IMG/VR virus record: IMGVR_UViG_3300018041_000086 | Coordinates: 1-21,488 of that record | Source of the DNA: a virus | Length of the DNA stretch: 21,488 nt | Direction: 5' to 3' (one strand) | In this document: positions 2,504 to 21,488 of the stretch, piece by piece | Layout: every line of letters starts with the position of its first letter | Position numbering within the stretch: position 1 is the first letter of the stretch | Notes under the pieces: model-generated | Database searches by the model: none | Told to the model about the DNA's origin: nothing | What the model saw: only the letters and a program-made list of their open reading frames with translations | Position numbers and translations under genes: made by a program

Positions 2504-4269
2504 TGGCAGACAGTTATCTAAAAGTTTCAGATGTTGATTTCGATGATATCCGAAATAACTTAAAGACGTTCCTTACAGCGCAGACTCAGTTTAGAGATTA
2601 TGACTTTGAAGGTTCTAATCTTTCTGCATTGTTAGATGTGTTGGCATATAATACACACTATAATGCATTTCATTTAAATATGCTCGCAAACGAGATGTTT
2701 TTAGATACTGCTCAACAGAGAGATAGCATTGCATCACTTGCGAAAATGTTAGGTTATGTTTCTACATCTGCACAAGGACCAACTGCACAGGTCAGTTTAT
2801 CATTTAGTGGACTCCCTGCAGGGACATCACAGTTTACTATCGCAAAGAACTCAAAGTTTAATACAACAATTGATGATATCAGTTATACATTTTCGACACC
2901 ACAAGCATACACGGTCGTTAATAATGCGGGGAACTTTAATATTACTTTAGATATTAAAGAAGGATTTCCTCTAGTTCATAAGTTTGTTCACAATTCGGCA
3001 AGTCCAACTCGTTTTGTAATCCCAAACAAAAATGTAGATACGAGTAGCATTGTTGTTAAAGTTCAAGAGTCGGCAGATGATACGACAACATCTGAATGGG
3101 TACGTGCAACAGATATCAAACAGGTTTTTGAAACATCAGAAATTTATTTTATTGAAGAAGCATACGATGAAAAATATGAAATTGTATTTGGTTCGGGTTC
3201 TTTAGGGAAATCACTGAAAAACGGAAACATTGTTATTGTAGAATACCTTGTATGTAATGGTGATGTTGCTAATGGAGCAAAAACTTTCTCTGTAGAAAAC
3301 CTTATCACAAACCTTGCATATGGAACTGTATCAGAACCGACAACAGTAAAAACTGCAGTCGGTGGTCGGTTTATTGAAACCTCAGAATCAGTTAAGTTTA
3401 ATGCTCCTAGACATTATCAGACACAGAATCGAGCAATCATTGCGGAAGATTACAAAAGAATTATTCTTGCCGAAAATTCAGATTTAGAATCGGTAGTTTC
3501 GTTTGGTGGTGAGAATGCTGATCCCCCTATCTACGGTAAAGTTTATATCGCAGTTAAACCATTTGGTGAGCAATTTACCACGGAGGCAAGAAAGGCATTG
3601 TTAAAAAATAGCATTGTTGATCGCACTCCACTATCGATTGAACCTGTGATTATTGATCCTGAGTACACATACATTATTGCTAATATCAATACATATTATG
3701 ATTCTACAAATACTCTAGACAAAGAGGGTACAATTCGAAGTGCAATACTCAATGCTATTACTAACTTTTCTACTAATAATTTAGAAAGATTTAGTAATCG
3801 TTTGCGTTTTTCAAAATTCTTATCTGCACTAGATAGCGTGACTGTTGGTAAAATTTTAAACAATGATGCGAGGTTAAGTTTGCAGAAACGGGTTGTGCCA
3901 GATACGCAGAGAGCAACCAGACTCGTTTTGAAATTCGCAAATGAATTAAGATCGAGCACATTAACAAGCACCCGTTTTACATTTAAAAACTTTAGTTGTT
4001 TCTTAGATGACGATGGTGTTGGTAATGTTAGAATATATCGTTTTGATGAAACAAAACAAAAAGTGATATTAGATGCTAATGCAGGTACGATCAATTATAC
4101 AACAGGTGTTGTTGACATACCAAATTTTGCACTGACTGCATATGAGGGCATTGAATTTTACGTGACATGCCAAACTCAAAATTTAGACATCGAACCTGTC
4201 AGAGAACAAATACTGATTATGGATGCTCAAAACGCAACAGTTTCAATTGTAGATGAAAGATTGAGATGA
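2503..4269 (+). CDS. 6: Baseplate wedge protein gp6 (baseplate J-like)
   Basis: A 588-residue protein; T4 gp6 is about 660. The N-terminus has the typical pattern of a short acidic start and FLTAQTQFRDYDFEGSNLSA followed by a helical segment with YNTHYNAFHLNM and ANEMFLDTAQQRDS. A PRHYQTQNRAIIAEDYKRII segment and the later VYIAVKP strand match the baseplate J-like region. gp6 dimers form the ring that joins wedges around the hub and contact gp25 and the gp7-like protein. The TAATG overlap with gp25 and the ATGA overlap with the next gene suggest coupled translation. Assignment is from sequence pattern plus position. Confidence 0.9.
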   Translation: MADSYLKVSDVDFDDIRNNLKTFLTAQTQFRDYDFEGSNLSALLDVLAYNTHYNAFHLNMLANEMFLDTAQQRDSIASLAKMLGYVSTSAQGPTAQVSLSFSGLPAGTSQFTIAKNSKFNTTIDDISYTFSTPQAYTVVNNAGNFNITLDIKEGFPLVHKFVHNSASPTRFVIPNKNVDTSSIVVKVQESADDTTTSEWVRATDIKQVFETSEIYFIEEAYDEKYEIVFGSGSLGKSLKNGNIVIVEYLVCNGDVANGAKTFSVENLITNLAYGTVSEPTTVKTAVGGRFIETSESVKFNAPRHYQTQNRAIIAEDYKRIILAENSDLESVVSFGGENADPPIYGKVYIAVKPFGEQFTTEARKALLKNSIVDRTPLSIEPVIIDPEYTYIIANINTYYDSTNTLDKEGTIRSAILNAITNFSTNNLERFSNRLRFSKFLSALDSVTVGKILNNDARLSLQKRVVPDTQRATRLVLKFANELRSSTLTSTRFTFKNFSCFLDDDGVGNVRIYRFDETKQKVILDANAGTINYTTGVVDIPNFALTAYEGIEFYVTCQTQNLDIEPVREQILIMDAQNATVSIVDERLR

Positions 4270-15402: not shown

Positions 15403-15608
15403 TGAATAAGTTAAAGATAAAAGATCATGATGATTTGGTACGTGATGTTAAATCCAATGCGGTAATTAATACAAATCAAACCGCATTGGAAAATTATAGA
15501 AATAAACGAAAGGCAAAACGTGAAATGATTAATGACGTAACAAATCTTAAAAATGATGTGCAAGAAATAAAAGAATTATTACAACAACTTTTAGAGAAGA
15601 ATAGATGA
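15402..15608 (+). CDS. Small coiled-coil protein, 68 aa
   Basis: ATG at 15402 overlaps the TAA of the giant gene (TAATG), and its stop overlaps the fibre start (ATGA). The product is basic in the middle (YRNKRKAKREM) and ends in a short coiled-coil helix (residues about 43-66, with Val, Leu and Ile at heptad spacing: VTNLKNDVQEIKELLQQLL). It has no membrane segment or known domain. Its place between the giant tail protein and the tail fibre suggests a small linker or trimerisation factor, which is inference. A perfect 11-bp inverted repeat lies within its codons 18-30. Confidence 0.8.
   Translation: MNKLKIKDHDDLVRDVKSNAVINTNQTALENYRNKRKAKREMINDVTNLKNDVQEIKELLQQLLEKNR
15453..15490 (+). repeat. 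Perfect 11-bp inverted repeat (hairpin) inside a coding region
   Basis: TCCAATGCGGT at 15453-15463 is the exact reverse complement of ACCGCATTGGA at 15480-15490, with a 16-nt AT-rich loop. In mRNA it could form a stable stem within codons 18-30 of the 68-aa gene. No T-run follows, so it is not a standard terminator. The right arm recurs exactly at 5965-5975. Confidence 0.6.
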
Positions 15609-18600
15609 GTATTCAAATCGCAAATACAGGACTAGGAAACAGTTTCGACACTTGGAGACTGAACACTAATCAGATAGCAACCATTATGAGCAACAATGTT
15701 GTTACTGTTGCCACATCTGATTCATCTCGAAAAAACTTTACTGAGGGTGATGGACACATCATCGGCACCTTTACTGCCGAAGAACTAAGGGCATCAGAAA
15801 TCAAAGGTGGGAACACTTCCGTTGATGGTGATCTAACTATTTCTGGAAATACTACGATTGGTGGAGACGGTCTAGGTACTTCAAGATCATTAATCGTTCA
15901 TGCAAACACTACCATTAGTGGCAATCTCATCGTTGACACTATTGGGCAAGAAGTGTTTAAAATGGGAAGTATCGAACGCATCAGAATTAATGGTGGTACA
16001 ACAGGTCAGTTCTTACAGTTAAGAGACAAAAACGATACACCAGATTTTAAAGATCTGGTATTGCGTGACATCACAGATCTTTCAACCAATTCGGCACATA
16101 TTATTCTTTCTGCCGCAAACACCACGTTTAGTGACAATGGAGATTCCCCAAAAGTTGTGTTCTCTACGACTTCTGGTGACAGGATCGAAATGTTCCTTGC
16201 CAAGGCAGCGGGTGTTGGAGACTCGGACCTTTATTTAAAATTAGTAGATACGGTTGGTGATTCAGTATTTGCCGTTGTTGATTCCGGAAACAATATTGTC
16301 GCACAGATTGATTCGACTGGTGAGGCAAACTACGAAGGAAGAATGACTGCAGTGGGATTCACCACAGAAGATCATATTCTTCCGACTGCCGATGATCAAC
16401 AAGATTTAGGTTCATCTACTTTAGAGTTTAAAGATGCATACATCGATGGTGTCGCATACGTAGATGAGTTATCATTAGGGACTGCCGCAACTCAAGGTGT
16501 CAGTACTTCAATAATTCCTAAAACTCATGATACTGTACATATTGGTTCTGCAACTCGTCGGTGGAGAAACTCGTACTTTACAGGAAATATGCAAGCAAAC
16601 AATGTGTATGTCCGTAAAGTGGGTATTGGTGGTGACTTAACTGCAAATGGATTGTCCAAACTTTCCAATACAACTGTTACGAAGTTAAACGCAAATAACG
16701 AAGTATACTTCCATGGTAACCTGACAGTCGATGGTGTATCGTCACTTAGTAACACAACAGTGACCAAGCTGAATGCAAACAATGAGGTTTACTTCCACGG
16801 AAACTTGCAAGTGCAAGGTGTTAGTTCTCTCAGTAATACTACGGTCACACTGTTTACAGCAAACAACAATGCAACTTTTAATGGAGACCGTGTTACTGTT
16901 TCTGGAAACACATTCTTACAATCTCAATTGACGGTCACCGACACAGCAAGTTTCAATGGGGACGTTAACCTTGGTAGTGCAACAGATGACACGATTACCA
17001 TGGAGGGTAACTTTGCAAATCAACACACAGAAGGCAGAGCAACATTTAGTGATTACCAATCGGGTGGTGTAGGTATTGGAACATTACCAGATACTGGATA
17101 TGATTTACATGTAAATAGAGATGCAAAGATCGGAAGAAATCTAGATATTGCGGGGGCAGTCGGTATTACTGGTGATCTTTCGATAGGTGGTAATATTACT
17201 CTTAGCAATGAAAGTGGAACAGTATTACAAGCACAAGATTTTGAAACTGAAAACTTGCATGTATCTGGAAACTCATACTTAGGTTCAGGTACATCTGATT
17301 TGATTTACTTTAACGGTGTTGCTAATAGTTCTTTGTTAATTGCTACAGGAACTCGACATAATATTGGTACGTCGTCTAGTAGACACCACATGATCTATGC
17401 GAACAACATGACAGTTTCGGATACGATCACTGCGAAAGATCTCAATGCAAGTGGTAACTTAGATATCGCAGGTAACACTGATGTCTCAGGTGCAATCACT
17501 AACGATGGCACGACACTGTTTGGTAACAACGGTAAGTTGCATGCAAACAACGTCATTCAGAATGGTAACATCACAACAGATATGTTATCTAATACTGCGA
17601 TTGCCACTGCGTTTGACGGATCAAATGGTGTTGAAAATCCTTCTGTTACATCAGGAACGTTTGGTAGTGCAACCTTAATACCAGTAATTACCGTTAACAA
17701 TAAAGGTCAGATTACTGCTGTTACTAACACTTCAGTTGCAGGTGTATCAGCATTCTCATTTAGTGGACAAGAGTTCAGAAACTTCTACATTGACACTGCT
17801 GATGGAAATAGATTTACTGCAAACATTTCTGCAGGATCTATTTCAACAAACACACTAGCAGTTCCTGTTGATGCTGACGGTACTGCTGTCACAGATTACT
17901 TTGACGGATCAAACACAGTTCAGACATTTGGTAGCTCAACCAAGATACCTCAGATTCAGGTTAACAGTAAAGGGCAAGTTGTTAAGGTAGCAAATGTTAC
18001 TGTTGCAGGTGTGAGTAGTGTTGAATTTACTCAAGCAAATAGTAATCTGAGAATTTCTACTGCGGATGGTGGATCGTTTGATGTCAATATTCATGATGGA
18101 CAACCAAGTAAACTTGAAGGAACAAGTAGTGAAGTAACAGTTACTGCGAAATCTGGTGATGCAAACACTTACGTTATTGGATTGCCTGATGATGTAACTA
18201 TCGCAGGACAGTTAAATGTTTCAGAAAATGTTGTCATTGCAGGTAACCTTATAGTTCAGGGTGCGGTGTCCGAAGTAAGCACTACGAATCTTGAAGTTGA
18301 AGATAACGTTATAAAATTAAACAAAGGTGAAACTGGACAAGGGGTAACTGATACTGGAGGTGAATCTGGTCTTGAAATTGATCGAGGGTCATTAAGAAAT
18401 GTTAGATTGGTTTGGAACGAAGCAGAAGATGTATTCGTTGTCAGAAACCAGACAGATAATCACACACTAAATATAGAAGCAAATAATTTCTTTGGTAATG
18501 CAAACACTGCTACACAATTAGAGACCGCAAGAAATTTTGCGTTGACGGGTGATGTTACAGCAACAGCAGTATCTTTTGATGGTAGTTCTGGTGTATCCTT

Positions 18601-18718
18601 GACAACAGATATAAGTGCTGATATAATTACTTCTACAGAATTAAAAAGTCCTGTTGCATTGAAGATTTATAATTCATCAGGGACGTTACAGAAAACCTTA
18701 TATGGTGCGGGTGAATAA
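15605..18718 (+). CDS. Tail fibre protein built of repeats
   Basis: A 1037-residue protein, beta-rich with many Asn-Thr-Gly repeats typical of trimeric phage fibres. The N-terminus (MSIQIANTGLGNSFDTWRLN) probably attaches to the tail. Following are short GNTTISGNL-type strands and three LGSS/IGS...(R/F)...Y units (near 273, 313 and 584). Next come three 28-residue repeats (LSNTTVTKLNANNEV, from residue 353) and an 89-residue tandem duplication carrying IPVITVNNKGQI and IPQIQVNSKGQV. A domain near 895-950 has NLEVEDNVIKLNKGETGQGV, EIDRG and LVWNE. The C-terminus is SPVALKIYNSSGTLQKTLYG. The last two blocks I recall from marine phage tail fibres. No chaperone or enzyme domain is visible. The likely role is host-surface recognition. 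The start overlaps the 68-aa gene (ATGA). Confidence 0.82.
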   Translation: MSIQIANTGLGNSFDTWRLNTNQIATIMSNNVVTVATSDSSRKNFTEGDGHIIGTFTAEELRASEIKGGNTSVDGDLTISGNTTIGGDGLGTSRSLIVHANTTISGNLIVDTIGQEVFKMGSIERIRINGGTTGQFLQLRDKNDTPDFKDLVLRDITDLSTNSAHIILSAANTTFSDNGDSPKVVFSTTSGDRIEMFLAKAAGVGDSDLYLKLVDTVGDSVFAVVDSGNNIVAQIDSTGEANYEGRMTAVGFTTEDHILPTADDQQDLGSSTLEFKDAYIDGVAYVDELSLGTAATQGVSTSIIPKTHDTVHIGSATRRWRNSYFTGNMQANNVYVRKVGIGGDLTANGLSKLSNTTVTKLNANNEVYFHGNLTVDGVSSLSNTTVTKLNANNEVYFHGNLQVQGVSSLSNTTVTLFTANNNATFNGDRVTVSGNTFLQSQLTVTDTASFNGDVNLGSATDDTITMEGNFANQHTEGRATFSDYQSGGVGIGTLPDTGYDLHVNRDAKIGRNLDIAGAVGITGDLSIGGNITLSNESGTVLQAQDFETENLHVSGNSYLGSGTSDLIYFNGVANSSLLIATGTRHNIGTSSSRHHMIYANNMTVSDTITAKDLNASGNLDIAGNTDVSGAITNDGTTLFGNNGKLHANNVIQNGNITTDMLSNTAIATAFDGSNGVENPSVTSGTFGSATLIPVITVNNKGQITAVTNTSVAGVSAFSFSGQEFRNFYIDTADGNRFTANISAGSISTNTLAVPVDADGTAVTDYFDGSNTVQTFGSSTKIPQIQVNSKGQVVKVANVTVAGVSSVEFTQANSNLRISTADGGSFDVNIHDGQPSKLEGTSSEVTVTAKSGDANTYVIGLPDDVTIAGQLNVSENVVIAGNLIVQGAVSEVSTTNLEVEDNVIKLNKGETGQGVTDTGGESGLEIDRGSLRNVRLVWNEAEDVFVVRNQTDNHTLNIEANNFFGNANTATQLETARNFALTGDVTATAVSFDGSSGVSLTTDISADIITSTELKSPVALKIYNSSGTLQKTLYGAGE
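16661..16891 (+). repeat. Three tandem 84-nt (28-aa) repeats in the tail fibre
   Basis: Units start at 16661, 16745 and 16829. The first two encode an identical 21-residue run (LSNTTVTKLNANNEV and on to FHGNL), yet 14 of those 21 codons differ synonymously. The third keeps LSNTTVT and then diverges. They probably form successive turns of the fibre shaft. Confidence 0.85.
17651..18100 (+). repeat. Direct repeat of an 89-aa unit in the tail fibre
   Basis: Matching segments (FGSATLIPVITVNNKGQI and FGSSTKIPQIQVNSKGQV) begin at 17660 and 17927, exactly 267 nt apart. Both are followed by VAGVSxxxF and DTADGN/STADGG strands, and both are preceded by FDGSN. This is a diverged internal duplication. 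Confidence 0.75.
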
Positions 18719-18721
18719 TTT

Positions 18722-20152
18722 ATGGCATTAGATCATGGCAGACCTATTCAGATAAAACAAAATGTTTTTTCTGATTTTGAAGAAATGACAGATGGTGACA
18801 TGGCATATGTTGCTAATCTTATTTTGGAAGAATTTGCAAAAGATGACACTGGACCGGGTTCCATTAATATTAATGGAAATGATGGAACACCTATAGGAAC
18901 ATTTATTGATACGAGATATACGGGAGTTACTGTTGGTACTCATCCCGTAGACTCAGATGATATAACTGAAATTAACTATGTGTTCAAACAAAATTTAAAC
19001 GAGGTGTCTTTAACGGAGGGAACGGATTATGTTCCTCCTGTAGTATTTGACTCCGGAAACACTGATTTTAGAACAGTTGATGATGGAAGAGATGAAACGG
19101 AGTTTCCTACTCCTCAGATTGGCATCCAAGCAATGGATATCGGTCAAATTAAATCAACTATTATTGATAAATGTTTAGGAAAACTGTCTTCTGGTGGAGT
19201 AGGATCGTATTATATTGGATCGACTGCTCCAGATGATGGTGGTACGTGGAAAATAATTGGTTCTTTTACAGACACTTCATTGGATGATACTGTCGGAAGT
19301 TCTGATATTGAAACTGAGGTCACTTACAATCTTTATAGAAAAACTGATGACAATGCAGAGTATGTTGTTAGGAGACCTCTGTATTTGAGATCTGATGACG
19401 ATTTATCTGAAATGTCAGACGGTGATATTAAGGATATGAAATCTATTTTACAGTACTATATCCGGACTACCGGAATTGGTCAATATGCATTACAAGAAAA
19501 TGCTCCTGCAGTAGGGACTTGGACTGCGGTTGGAAGTTCTTCTGATAAGAGACAAAACGAAGGAAATATTTCATATACTGGATTCTTTACTGGACAATAT
19601 ACAGGTTCCTACACTGCTTCTTATACTGGAACTTATCAGACTACATATACGGGATCTTATACCAGACAATACGCAGGTTCTTATAGTGGGTACTATACTA
19701 CGGATTATTCAGGAAGTTATTCTGGTGGATATTCAGGGACTTATCGTAGAACTTTTACAGGATATTATACAGGTAATTATAAAAGATTGTATGCAGGTAC
19801 TCACGGATTCTTAAAGTATTATGGTGGGTACAGCAAATATTGGACGGGAACTCACAATTATACAAGATATTGGCAAAGAACTGTCACAAAAAAATTCACA
19901 AGGTCATCTACGGGTACTTACACAGGAACTTACACTGGTGAGTACACTGGTGCATACCAAGGAGATTATTCTGGTACTTACGGAAGTCCAGTTAATAAAA
20001 ACTATGTGGGAAATTACTCGGGAAATTATATTCGTAACTATAGTGGAACCTATTCTGGTAATTACTCATCGTTTTTTACAGGGGCAACAGTTTTACAACA
20101 AGAAATTACCGTTTCTGGCACTCCAGTAACACTTTGGCAGAGGACAGCATGA
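18722..20152 (+). CDS. Probable fibre/structural protein with tyrosine-rich tetrapeptide repeats
   Basis: A 476-residue protein with two parts. Residues 1-283 hold two related segments: DFEEMTDGDMAYVANLIL near 17 and DLSEMSDGDIKDMKSILQYY near 227, and GGTWKIIGSFTD near 175 and GTWTAVGSSSD near 261. The second part, residues 285-455, is a repeat of period four, [Y/F]-[T/S]-G-x, in two blocks of 19 and 16 units separated by about 31 aromatic and basic residues. It ends in a short hydrophobic tail. There is no signal peptide and no enzyme motif. It starts 3 nt after the tail fibre stop and lies just before a small gene and a glycosyltransferase. A role as a distal fibre or adhesin is inferred. 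I do not recognise a named family, although I have a faint recollection of similar YTG-rich proteins in marine phages. Confidence 0.75.
   Translation: MALDHGRPIQIKQNVFSDFEEMTDGDMAYVANLILEEFAKDDTGPGSININGNDGTPIGTFIDTRYTGVTVGTHPVDSDDITEINYVFKQNLNEVSLTEGTDYVPPVVFDSGNTDFRTVDDGRDETEFPTPQIGIQAMDIGQIKSTIIDKCLGKLSSGGVGSYYIGSTAPDDGGTWKIIGSFTDTSLDDTVGSSDIETEVTYNLYRKTDDNAEYVVRRPLYLRSDDDLSEMSDGDIKDMKSILQYYIRTTGIGQYALQENAPAVGTWTAVGSSSDKRQNEGNISYTGFFTGQYTGSYTASYTGTYQTTYTGSYTRQYAGSYSGYYTTDYSGSYSGGYSGTYRRTFTGYYTGNYKRLYAGTHGFLKYYGGYSKYWTGTHNYTRYWQRTVTKKFTRSSTGTYTGTYTGEYTGAYQGDYSGTYGSPVNKNYVGNYSGNYIRNYSGTYSGNYSSFFTGATVLQQEITVSGTPVTLWQRTA
19574..20086 (+). repeat. Tyr/Gly tetrapeptide repeat region (12-nt period)
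   Basis: Block 1 (19574-19801) holds 19 consecutive four-residue units and block 2 (19895-20086) holds 16, each opening with Tyr or Phe in most cases and commonly Gly at position three. Codons for the same residues vary freely (TAT/TAC; ACT/ACA/ACG; GGA/GGT/GGG), so the period is conserved in protein more than in DNA. Confidence 0.9.
20139..20144 (+). promoter_or_regulatory. Ribosome binding site deciding the start of the 147-aa gene
   Basis: AGAGGA lies four bases before the ATG at 20149 and seven before the next in-frame ATG at 20152. It favours either of these over an upstream in-frame TTG at 20134. Confidence 0.6.
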
Positions 20153-20592
20153 TGCAGAATGTACATATTAAAAGAGCGTATTATTTAAATAATGCAAGAG
20201 ACAAAATCGAAGTGCATTATACGACACAAGATAGTGATGGTGTTTTTGTAGCACAAACTTCAAAATCTGAAAAAGAAGCTTCTTTGTGGATACAAGCGCA
20301 TTCTCAACTAACTGTTGAAGAAATGACGAATTTTACTAAAGATCATATTGAAGAAATTGATAATAGAAGAAGACGTATTGACGAACAGAAAAAAGCAATA
20401 CTAACAGAAAAAGTTAATGATGAGTTGTTTAAAGCAAAATTAGAAATTTTTGAATTGCCTGAAATTAAAGATTCGAAAAATAGAACTATGAAATCTAAGA
20501 TTCGTAAAGCAGAAACTCTCAATCAAGTTTATATTTATGCAGGAGCGATGATTGCACTTGAAACCCTCAAGAAAGAAAAAGAGTCCAAATAA
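20149..20592 (+). CDS. Hypothetical protein, 147 aa
   Basis: I place the start at ATG 20149, which overlaps the upstream stop as ATGA, like several neighbours. ATG 20152 is equally possible. The N-terminal 50 residues look beta-rich (HIKRAYYLNN, KIEVHYTTQDSDGVFVAQ). From about 50 on the protein is helical and highly charged (HIEEIDNRRRRIDEQKKAIL), ending in LNQVYIYAGAMIALETLKKE. There is no signal peptide; the hydrophobic end stretch is too short for a confident membrane span. I do not recognise the family. Its place right after two fibre-like genes would suit a fibre assembly chaperone or accessory factor, but nothing in the sequence proves this. Confidence 0.7.
   Translation: MMQNVHIKRAYYLNNARDKIEVHYTTQDSDGVFVAQTSKSEKEASLWIQAHSQLTVEEMTNFTKDHIEEIDNRRRRIDEQKKAILTEKVNDELFKAKLEIFELPEIKDSKNRTMKSKIRKAETLNQVYIYAGAMIALETLKKEKESK
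20541..20545 (+). promoter_or_regulatory. Ribosome binding site supporting a TTG start
   Basis: AGGAG lies six bases before TTG at 20552, inside the preceding gene. No in-frame ATG or GTG lies before the conserved start of the glycosyltransferase fold. Confidence 0.55.
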
Positions 20593-21292
20593 CGGATATC
20601 TATATGTTGGCACAACTTCCAAAATTTATCTACGATCAGCAATATACAGTGCCCAGTCTTTAAAAGACTATTATCCAGAAGCAAATGTAACTATAGCAAC
20701 TCAAAAAGAGTGGATTGATGACACTCTTTTTGATACATTTGATCATGTAATCGAAGTCTCAGATCACTACAGAGCAAAACTAGAAGCATTACCAAAAACT
20801 CCATATGACCTAACATTGTATATTGATGCTGACACTGAAGTGTGTCACGAAGATATCTCTAAAGTATTTGAAGAGATTGGCAATGCAGATATCGTTTTAA
20901 CTAAAACCAGAGACTATGCATCAGCAGAAGTTTACTTTCCCGGAGGTGAACTCAGAGATCATTGTGGTGTGTTCTTATATAGGAAAACACCAAAAGTGAT
21001 AACATTCATGGAAAAGTGGTTTGAGTACTACAAGAAACAAAAAGACCACGGAGAAGAAGGATGGCCTTACGATAGGAACTTATACCCATCTTCTTTGAGA
21101 TATTGGGATCAATTTACCTTTTGGTGGTTGCAAAATAAAACTGAATATGCTATAGTAAGAGAATATTTTAAAGATCCGGATGCACGATGGAATTATATTT
21201 GGCCGTATGAAGAAGAGGGAAGGTGTGAATGTGATCCGGATGACATTGTGATTTATCACAGAACTTTACCGAAGGAAGATCGTTTAATATGA
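20552..21292 (+). CDS. Glycosyltransferase-like protein (GT-A fold, DxD motif)
   Basis: A 246-residue protein. After a basic start, GYLYVGTTSKIYLRSAIYSA followed by a Ser-Leu-rich helix and NVTIATQKEWID fit the nucleotide-binding half of a GT-A fold. LTLYIDADTEV, with Asp92-Ala-Asp94, is the metal-binding DxD motif that holds a nucleotide sugar. HCGVFLYRKTP near 145 and WDQFTFWWL near 185 are further segments seen in such enzymes. The pattern recalls the GT8 (glycogenin-like) group, but the exact family, sugar and acceptor cannot be told. The probable start is TTG 20552 behind AGGAG, overlapping the previous gene by 41 nt; TTG 20558 is an alternative. It has no membrane segment. It could modify phage fibre proteins, DNA or host glycans. 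The ATGA overlap couples it to the next gene. Confidence 0.78.
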   Translation: MHLKPSRKKKSPNNGYLYVGTTSKIYLRSAIYSAQSLKDYYPEANVTIATQKEWIDDTLFDTFDHVIEVSDHYRAKLEALPKTPYDLTLYIDADTEVCHEDISKVFEEIGNADIVLTKTRDYASAEVYFPGGELRDHCGVFLYRKTPKVITFMEKWFEYYKKQKDHGEEGWPYDRNLYPSSLRYWDQFTFWWLQNKTEYAIVREYFKDPDARWNYIWPYEEEGRCECDPDDIVIYHRTLPKEDRLI

Positions 21293-21488
21293 AGTTATTG
21301 GATTGCGAATATAATCCAGAAGTTGTAGAAATTTTAAATTCTATTCAACAACAAGTATTCGCAGAATTAGAAAATATTGTTTGTGAAGGAAATCCTGATG
21401 AAGATTATCATACAGGACAAGATTACCTAGAGAAAATGTTAGAAAAAGACTCTCAAGGTAATCATAAAGGATTCCCTGAAGTAACGCA
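21289..21488 (+). CDS. 5' part of a small acidic protein (runs off the window)
   Basis: ATG at 21289 overlaps the glycosyltransferase stop (ATGA). The frame stays open to the window end and gives 66 residues starting MKLLDCEYNPEVVEILNSIQ, acidic, mostly helical, with CEGNPDEDYHTGQDYLEKML later. I recognise no family. The ribosome binding site (AAGGAAG) is about 11 bases upstream, which is distant, so coupling to the upstream gene probably matters. Confidence 0.6.
   Translation, partial: MKLLDCEYNPEVVEILNSIQQQVFAELENIVCEGNPDEDYHTGQDYLEKMLEKDSQGNHKGFPEVT

Follow-up and report, generated by a model that had tools for sequence, protein, structure and literature searches.

Mirror-symmetric tetrad repeats suggest a giant beta-hairpin fibre in T4-like aquatic phages

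In known long viral fibres the chain travels from base to tip only once, and the usual form is a trimeric coiled coil or a beta-helix. Among 50,697 GenBank phages, the protein family described here is present only in Phage C48C1 (OQ984149, Kyanoviridae), where the protein WJE88074.1 is annotated simply as hypothetical. Like the protein encoded in our window (the whole stretch of DNA analysed, a 21,488-base virus record from IMG/VR), it has the N-terminal modules, the aromatic tetrads, the C-terminus and, downstream, a small protein and a glycosyltransferase; unlike it, the C48C1 protein has 3,347 aa, R-rich 12-residue variants and inserted non-repeat domains, and is not mirror-symmetric overall. 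These inserts lie in the arms of the C48C1 protein (L006:11983-22026) at residues ~1810-2090, ~2405-2570, ~2645-2815, ~2890-3060 and ~3135-3290, the first of them being near the array midpoint, partly duplicated and jelly-roll-like by eye. Another giant member, of 3,884 aa (L017:4349-16003), carries at residues ~200-420 an insert that looks beta-propeller-like by eye (repeated VYD..DL.A.PT), and a Pfam search with the inserted central domains of giant members gave no match.

The window is a T4-like baseplate cluster coding for a gp5-type hub, a PAAR protein, a gp25-type protein, a gp6-type wedge and further wedge or structural proteins, and the gp5, PAAR, gp25, gp6 and wedge genes lie upstream of the gene under study (Table 1), whose product is encoded identically in L001, another record of the same phage. 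We read this product as a tail fibre or adhesin of a T4-like aquatic phage with the form of a giant beta-hairpin, a reading to which we give a probability of roughly 75%. The word fibre is one that we infer from the gene neighbourhood. A paralogue in L002 (1561-4992; also L003:406-3837) lacks the N-terminal modules; it has ~165 aromatic tetrads in register, is mirror-symmetric about residue 826, against a midpoint of 827, and has at its end a Gp38 adhesin domain (PF05268, E 1.8e-10) that the window protein does not contain. The genome position, the variable tip and this Gp38-bearing, mirror-symmetric paralogue point to a fibre that would contact the host. The gene directly upstream, at 15605-18718 of the window, codes for a fibre-like protein of 1,037 aa in which SLSNTTVTKLNANNEVYFHGNL motifs recur, and at 10 family loci the upstream gene is its homologue.

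Table 1. Coordinates in the window of the proposed hairpin-fibre gene, its parts and the genes that follow it
Feature	Position	Strand	Basis
Proposed hairpin-fibre protein, 476 aa	18722..20152	+	ORF; family found in IMG/VR
N-terminal module 1, residues 1-112 (boundary approximate)	18722..19057	+	AlphaFold2 pLDDT mostly >85; alignments
N-terminal module 2, residues ~130-222	19109..19387	+	AlphaFold2; alignment
Module 3, first half, residues 223-284	19388..19573	+	AlphaFold2; invariant G/P/W columns in alignment
Proposed outgoing hairpin arm, residues 285-361, aromatic every 4	19574..19804	+	Spacing test; mirror analysis
Proposed hairpin tip region, residues 362-379 (GFLKYYGGYSKYWTGTHN)	19805..19858	+	Tip motif conserved in small relatives
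Proposed returning arm, residues 380-455, aromatic every 4, other phase	19859..20086	+	Break at V424
Module 3, closing strand, residues 456-476 (..PVTLWQRTA)	20087..20149	+	Alignment; strand 440-474 in model
Gene +1, ~147 aa, possible fibre chaperone	20149..20592	+	Homologues beside fibre gene in 43-46 loci; alignment
Gene +2, GT8/glycogenin-like glycosyltransferase	20552..21292	+	Motifs; PDB profile matches; linkage
Gene +3	21289..21486, runs past window end; complete in L001:7568-8233	+	Found at 31 loci

Searching IMG/VR with a profile of the N-terminal region returned at least 176 family loci, and 89 distinct family proteins were taken into the analysis, ranging from 281 aa without repeats (L047) to 3,884 aa (L017), with most small members at 312-430 aa. 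Neither the window protein nor its N-terminus gave a tblastn match in the 50,697 GenBank phages, and the weak matches that the L002 repeat gave in Vibrio phage F23s1 and Enterococcus phage 156 ran antisense to annotated genes and were treated as chance. No relative of the family turned up when 84,980 bacterial and archaeal species genomes were scanned, which leaves it without a prophage or host link. The preliminary description, made from the sequence before any search, knew of no named domain with this period, and the searches agree: scans of the window protein against Pfam and PHROGs were empty at E<=10, giant relatives have only weak PHROG matches, the family and N-terminal module profiles found no useful match in PDB sequences, and Foldseek found no fold match in PDB or BFVD for the models of the window protein and of the short-armed relative L028. 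Open-access PMC literature (subscription literature lay outside the scope) contained no description of the repeat, the family, an out-and-back fibre design or the gene linkage. Judged by these comparisons, the family, of putative tail proteins of aquatic phages, had gone unrecorded; it is absent from Pfam, PHROGs and the PDB.

Within the window protein, an aromatic residue recurs every four residues over 285-455, as the preliminary description had reported, occupying position 1 in 32 of 33 units, and position 3 is usually G or R/K. When the aromatic positions were shuffled 20,000 times, no more than 22 aromatic pairs at +4 arose, against 33 observed. The stricter formulation of 35 [Y/F]-[T/S]-G-x units did not hold in a unit-by-unit count, in which [YF][TS]G fits only ~19 of the 33 units, with YTRQ, YRRT, YKRL, YQTT, YTTD, YIRN and YGSP among the others. 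Likewise, of the two blocks said to be uninterrupted, the first stands (19 units, 285-357), but the second is broken where V424 replaces the aromatic, leaving runs of 6 (400-420) and 7 units (428-452). The 31 residues taken for a spacer between them are themselves aromatic (Y366, Y370 and W374, then Y380, W384 and F392), shifted in phase and situated at the array midpoint. The view that selection acts on the protein is borne out, since synonymous codons are used side by side (Y TAT/TAC 26/11; G GGA/GGT/GGG 15/11/4; four different ones for T) and the DNA itself is only weakly repetitive, Tandem Repeats Finder reporting two weak 12-nt arrays and nothing more; the period is therefore held at the protein level.

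The relatives, on whose keeping of the unit period the idea of a defined repeat had been made to depend, do keep it: across the 89 distinct proteins, 7,145 successive in-register aromatic spacings are exactly 4, and the longest run in exact register reaches 240 units (L040). Position preferences in the family are, in order, Y 68/F 29/W 3, T/A/S/V, G 60/R 15/K 8 and N/T/Q/D. Off-period spacings are mostly even (6: 195, 8: 440, 10: 60, 16: 130; odd 5: 61, 7: 18, 9: 45), as expected of a beta-strand, in which alternate residues share one face.

The array has a definite place in the domain layout. In the AlphaFold2 model, module 1 contains a helix (24-40) and strands at 56-66 and 81-90, and module 2 a helix (140-156) followed by a hairpin of strands 175-186 and 198-209 that carries no insertion. 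The first half of module 3 runs from the EMSDGDI helix through GIGQY to the GTW strand (W267), which leads into the outgoing arm. Modules 2 and 3 look alike, and in module 3 the entire repeat array separates the two strands of the hairpin (267-297 and 440-474); in L047 this insert is almost missing. In alignments, the window protein shares with the family the three-module N-terminus, M-x-D-x-E/D-I, G-x-G-x-Y, GTW and the C-terminal L-W-x-R-t-A, a terminus conserved in the family as tvsLWxRtA, and it also has repeat arms of equal length around a central tip. The midpoint between W267 and W472, 369.5, falls inside the tip region.

If the array is folded as a hairpin, its outgoing and returning halves must match in length, and this is the property that the family displays. 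Along the span from the module 3 W to the C-terminal LW, the largest register break falls at 0.4-0.6 in 51 of 62 proteins and, after clustering at 70% identity, in 30 of 37 clusters (binomial p 2.5e-15). A clean tip is present in 18 clusters; in these, outgoing arm length correlates with returning arm length at r=0.9945, and most share a tip displaced 2.5 residues from the midpoint, although their spans range from 81 to 241. Register breaks are mirrored as well: the first and last runs of L002 have 54 units each (250-462 and 1887-2099) and stand 1,425 residues apart (462 to 1887), while the runs number 128+5 against 126+5 units in L086 and 14+7 against 14+6 in L058. When every possible axis was compared, the highest mirror correlation was found at a distance from the predicted axis of 1 residue in L086 (r=0.85), 8 residues in L002 (r=0.70) and 3 residues in L064 (r=0.58).

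Indels between relatives come in mirror-placed pairs. Over all protein pairs, 164 of 516 indels are mirror-matched, compared with a mean of 53 and a maximum of 85 in 200 randomisations of position; because many pairs share members and repeat alignments are ambiguous, the argument is carried by near-identical pairs. Between L016 and L023, which come from different metagenomes, the first gene copy differs by 32 and 32 aa and the second by 60 and 60 aa; the DNA, at 97-98% identity, shows exact gaps of 96+96 and 180+180 nt, and no other gap in it reaches 6 nt. L100 and L102 differ by 12-10|10-12, and L012 and L022 by 288-48-116|116-48-288 aa, at distances from the base of 97/107, 197/203 and 257/261. 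Assembly collapse would not produce mirrored pairs of this kind. One uncompensated indel of 28 aa (7 units) separates L002 from L003, in the returning arm at L002 residue 1330, and may be an intermediate of paired arm-length evolution or an assembly difference. No mirror symmetry as a whole is present in the proteins of C48C1, L041 and L051, and the V424 break in the returning arm of the window protein has no counterpart in its outgoing arm.

The L016 and L023 phages each carry two family genes in tandem (L016:5983-14067, L023:5983-13515), and each gene has its own mirror-paired deletion between the two phages.

Comparison of sequences thus demonstrates the family, the site of insertion, the equal and mirror-matched arms and the gene linkage taken up below. 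For the window protein itself, the repeats very probably form two antiparallel beta-strand arms, one leading out and the other back over the same length. The sequences did not separate a cross-strand register with Tyr opposite Tyr from one with Tyr opposite Gly.

Structure prediction bears on the same question from the base of the array. The AlphaFold2 monomer of the window protein has confident N-terminal modules and pairs strands 267-297 and 440-474, and L028 (mean pLDDT 87, pTM 0.80) shows strands 236-257, 260-268, 271-280 and 283-312, with a turn at 269-270, close to the midpoint. The base of the hairpin and the start of the arms are in this sense predicted; in the distal arms pLDDT is 29-54 across both monomer models (~50 in L028, <50 in the window protein), and because of this low confidence the far arm rests on the sequence symmetry and not on the model. 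The beta fold proposed in the preliminary description agrees with the extended paired strands at the array base, but its small solenoid or independent blocks do not fit the mirror evidence and the model, from which we read the blocks as the outgoing and returning arms of one hairpin and the spacer as its tip. Its caution that predicted disorder would speak against a defined fold applies in part, since the hairpin base is built with confidence but the distal arms stay below pLDDT 50 in the monomer.

Two other folds were rejected on the mirror evidence. A single-chain beta-solenoid or beta-helix, with a tetrad or pair of tetrads as a side or turn and the blocks as independent stacks, would suit the strict short period, the glycine-rich turns typical of solenoids and distal arms that AlphaFold2 leaves undefined; it gives no reason for equal blocks, mirrored register breaks or mirror-paired indels, and the AlphaFold2 base consists of extended paired strands and not of coils. 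Instead of the stacked repeats and free array length of a solenoid, the arms are equal and the indels paired, and neither the models nor Foldseek returned a solenoid, which makes this fold very improbable. Scarcely more probable is a sticky, prion-like low-complexity tether of Tyr, Gly and Arg without a defined fold: the abundance of Y, G, S/T, R and Q and the array pLDDT below 50 are what it would predict, but such a tether has no need for 240 units in register, even off-period spacings or equal arms with mirrored indels.

A closer competitor to the intrachain hairpin keeps the antiparallel arms and has them pair between chains, as in a domain-swapped dimer or trimer where an arm of one chain lies against the returning arm of another. 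All of the equal-length and mirror evidence is equally compatible with it, phage fibres are usually trimers, and monomer confidence falls along the arm; on the other side, the insertion-free beta-hairpin of module 2 forms within one chain, and the short tips resemble ordinary tight turns. We consider pairing between chains rather unlikely, and the oligomeric state of the fibre is something we infer.

In the family, three genes follow the fibre gene, with products of ~150 aa, ~240 aa (the glycosyltransferase) and ~215 aa. The first, gene +1, matched no protein family at a convincing score. In the alignment of gene +2, the DxD (D80, D82) and R62/K64 are invariant and a C-terminal H224 nearly so; the best matches of its profile in the PDB are all glycogenin, at a weak E of 0.003, and its L004 homologue falls just short of the cut-off for PF01501 (E 7e-5, 23.0 bits against 24.3). 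Gene +3 has the pattern W-H-x-N ... H ... R, with H128-x-N130 in place of HxD and with H188 and R196 invariant; it matched nothing in Pfam or the PDB, and its pattern is reminiscent of 2OG-oxygenase barrels, a likeness that is unproven.

Starting from the glycosyltransferase, a family gene ends within 1.5 kb in 73 of the 73 loci with enough upstream sequence; starting from the fibre gene, the glycosyltransferase is found in 55 of 56 non-redundant loci (ten more were left out of the count). It is missing only at L047, the one examined member without repeats and a single locus, and is still present in L089 and L090, which have only a 3-unit run. Glycogenin glucosylates its own tyrosine. Given the linkage in 73 of 73 loci and the absence beside the repeat-less L047, the repeats would be the substrate of the enzyme, and we lean towards its adding sugar to the arms. 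The preliminary description supposed that the tyrosines could stack against sugars; the linked enzyme points instead to sugars joined to the arms. That it is instead an accessory gene, acting on host surface sugars or phage DNA and not on the fibre, accords with the enzymes that phages carry for DNA and O-antigen modification; against this, an enzyme modifying DNA or LPS needs no such linkage to a fibre gene, and no homologue exists in GenBank phages other than C48C1. An accessory role seems unlikely. Elsewhere near the fibre locus of the same phage, L001:8221-10990 (minus strand) holds a carbamoyltransferase gene (PF16861, PF02543) and another gene of weak GT8 likeness, which suggests more sugar chemistry.

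Taken together, the proposed structure would have the three N-terminal alpha/beta modules as its base, with the tetrad repeats grown into the loop of the module 3 beta-hairpin as outgoing and returning arms. Because the arms run out and back equally, the tip would lie mid-sequence and both chain ends at the base. Each arm of the window protein, at ~85 residues, would measure ~28 nm at full extension (3.3 A per residue), and the arms of relatives would reach ~900 residues. One face of the ribbon would carry Tyr/Phe (position 1) and Gly/Arg/Lys (position 3), and the other the residues at positions 2 and 4; the GT8-like enzyme encoded two genes downstream would most likely put sugars on arm residues that bear a hydroxyl (Tyr, Thr or Ser), and the hairpin tip would contact the host. 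Whether the tip binds a receptor we regard as evenly balanced. The complete picture, of a glycosylated beta-hairpin rod of up to ~300 nm (~900-residue arms fully extended) in which paired mutations keep the register, the receptor tip lies mid-sequence and a dedicated glycogenin-like enzyme decorates a Tyr/Thr ladder, is put forward tentatively, at slightly less than even odds.

The proposed out-and-back architecture would be an unfamiliar one for a viral fibre; the fibre role itself is a known kind of function. If the reading is true, a single chain going out and back with arms of up to ~900 residues would represent a novel principle for constructing long protein rods, and the family would be a clear natural case of long-range paired indels by which arms are kept equal; such indels could allow hairpin architecture to be tested from sequence alone in other repeat proteins. 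Since the linkage to the glycosyltransferase is strict, glycosylation of a phage fibre, possibly on tyrosine, can be tested directly. Aquatic viromes commonly contain the family, which is almost absent from cultured phages, and for this reason it may reveal how uncultured aquatic phages attach to their hosts.

Compared with known systems, gene +2 has the DxD and the C-terminal His in common with glycogenin and other GT8 enzymes at very weak similarity, and differs from them in being confined to phages and always beside the repeat protein. SMC and Rad50-type proteins likewise have sequence-distant arms that fold back on each other, with a hinge or tip mid-sequence and both ends at the head; their arms are alpha-helical coiled coils, whereas those proposed here are beta-strand tetrads, and we claim no relationship. 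The gene in the window follows baseplate genes, as do those of the T-even long tail fibres and Gp38 (PF05268), the domain in which the L002 repeat paralogue ends. In T-even fibres, however, the chain runs once and places the adhesin at its far end, whereas the chain of the proposed hairpin fibre would go out and return.
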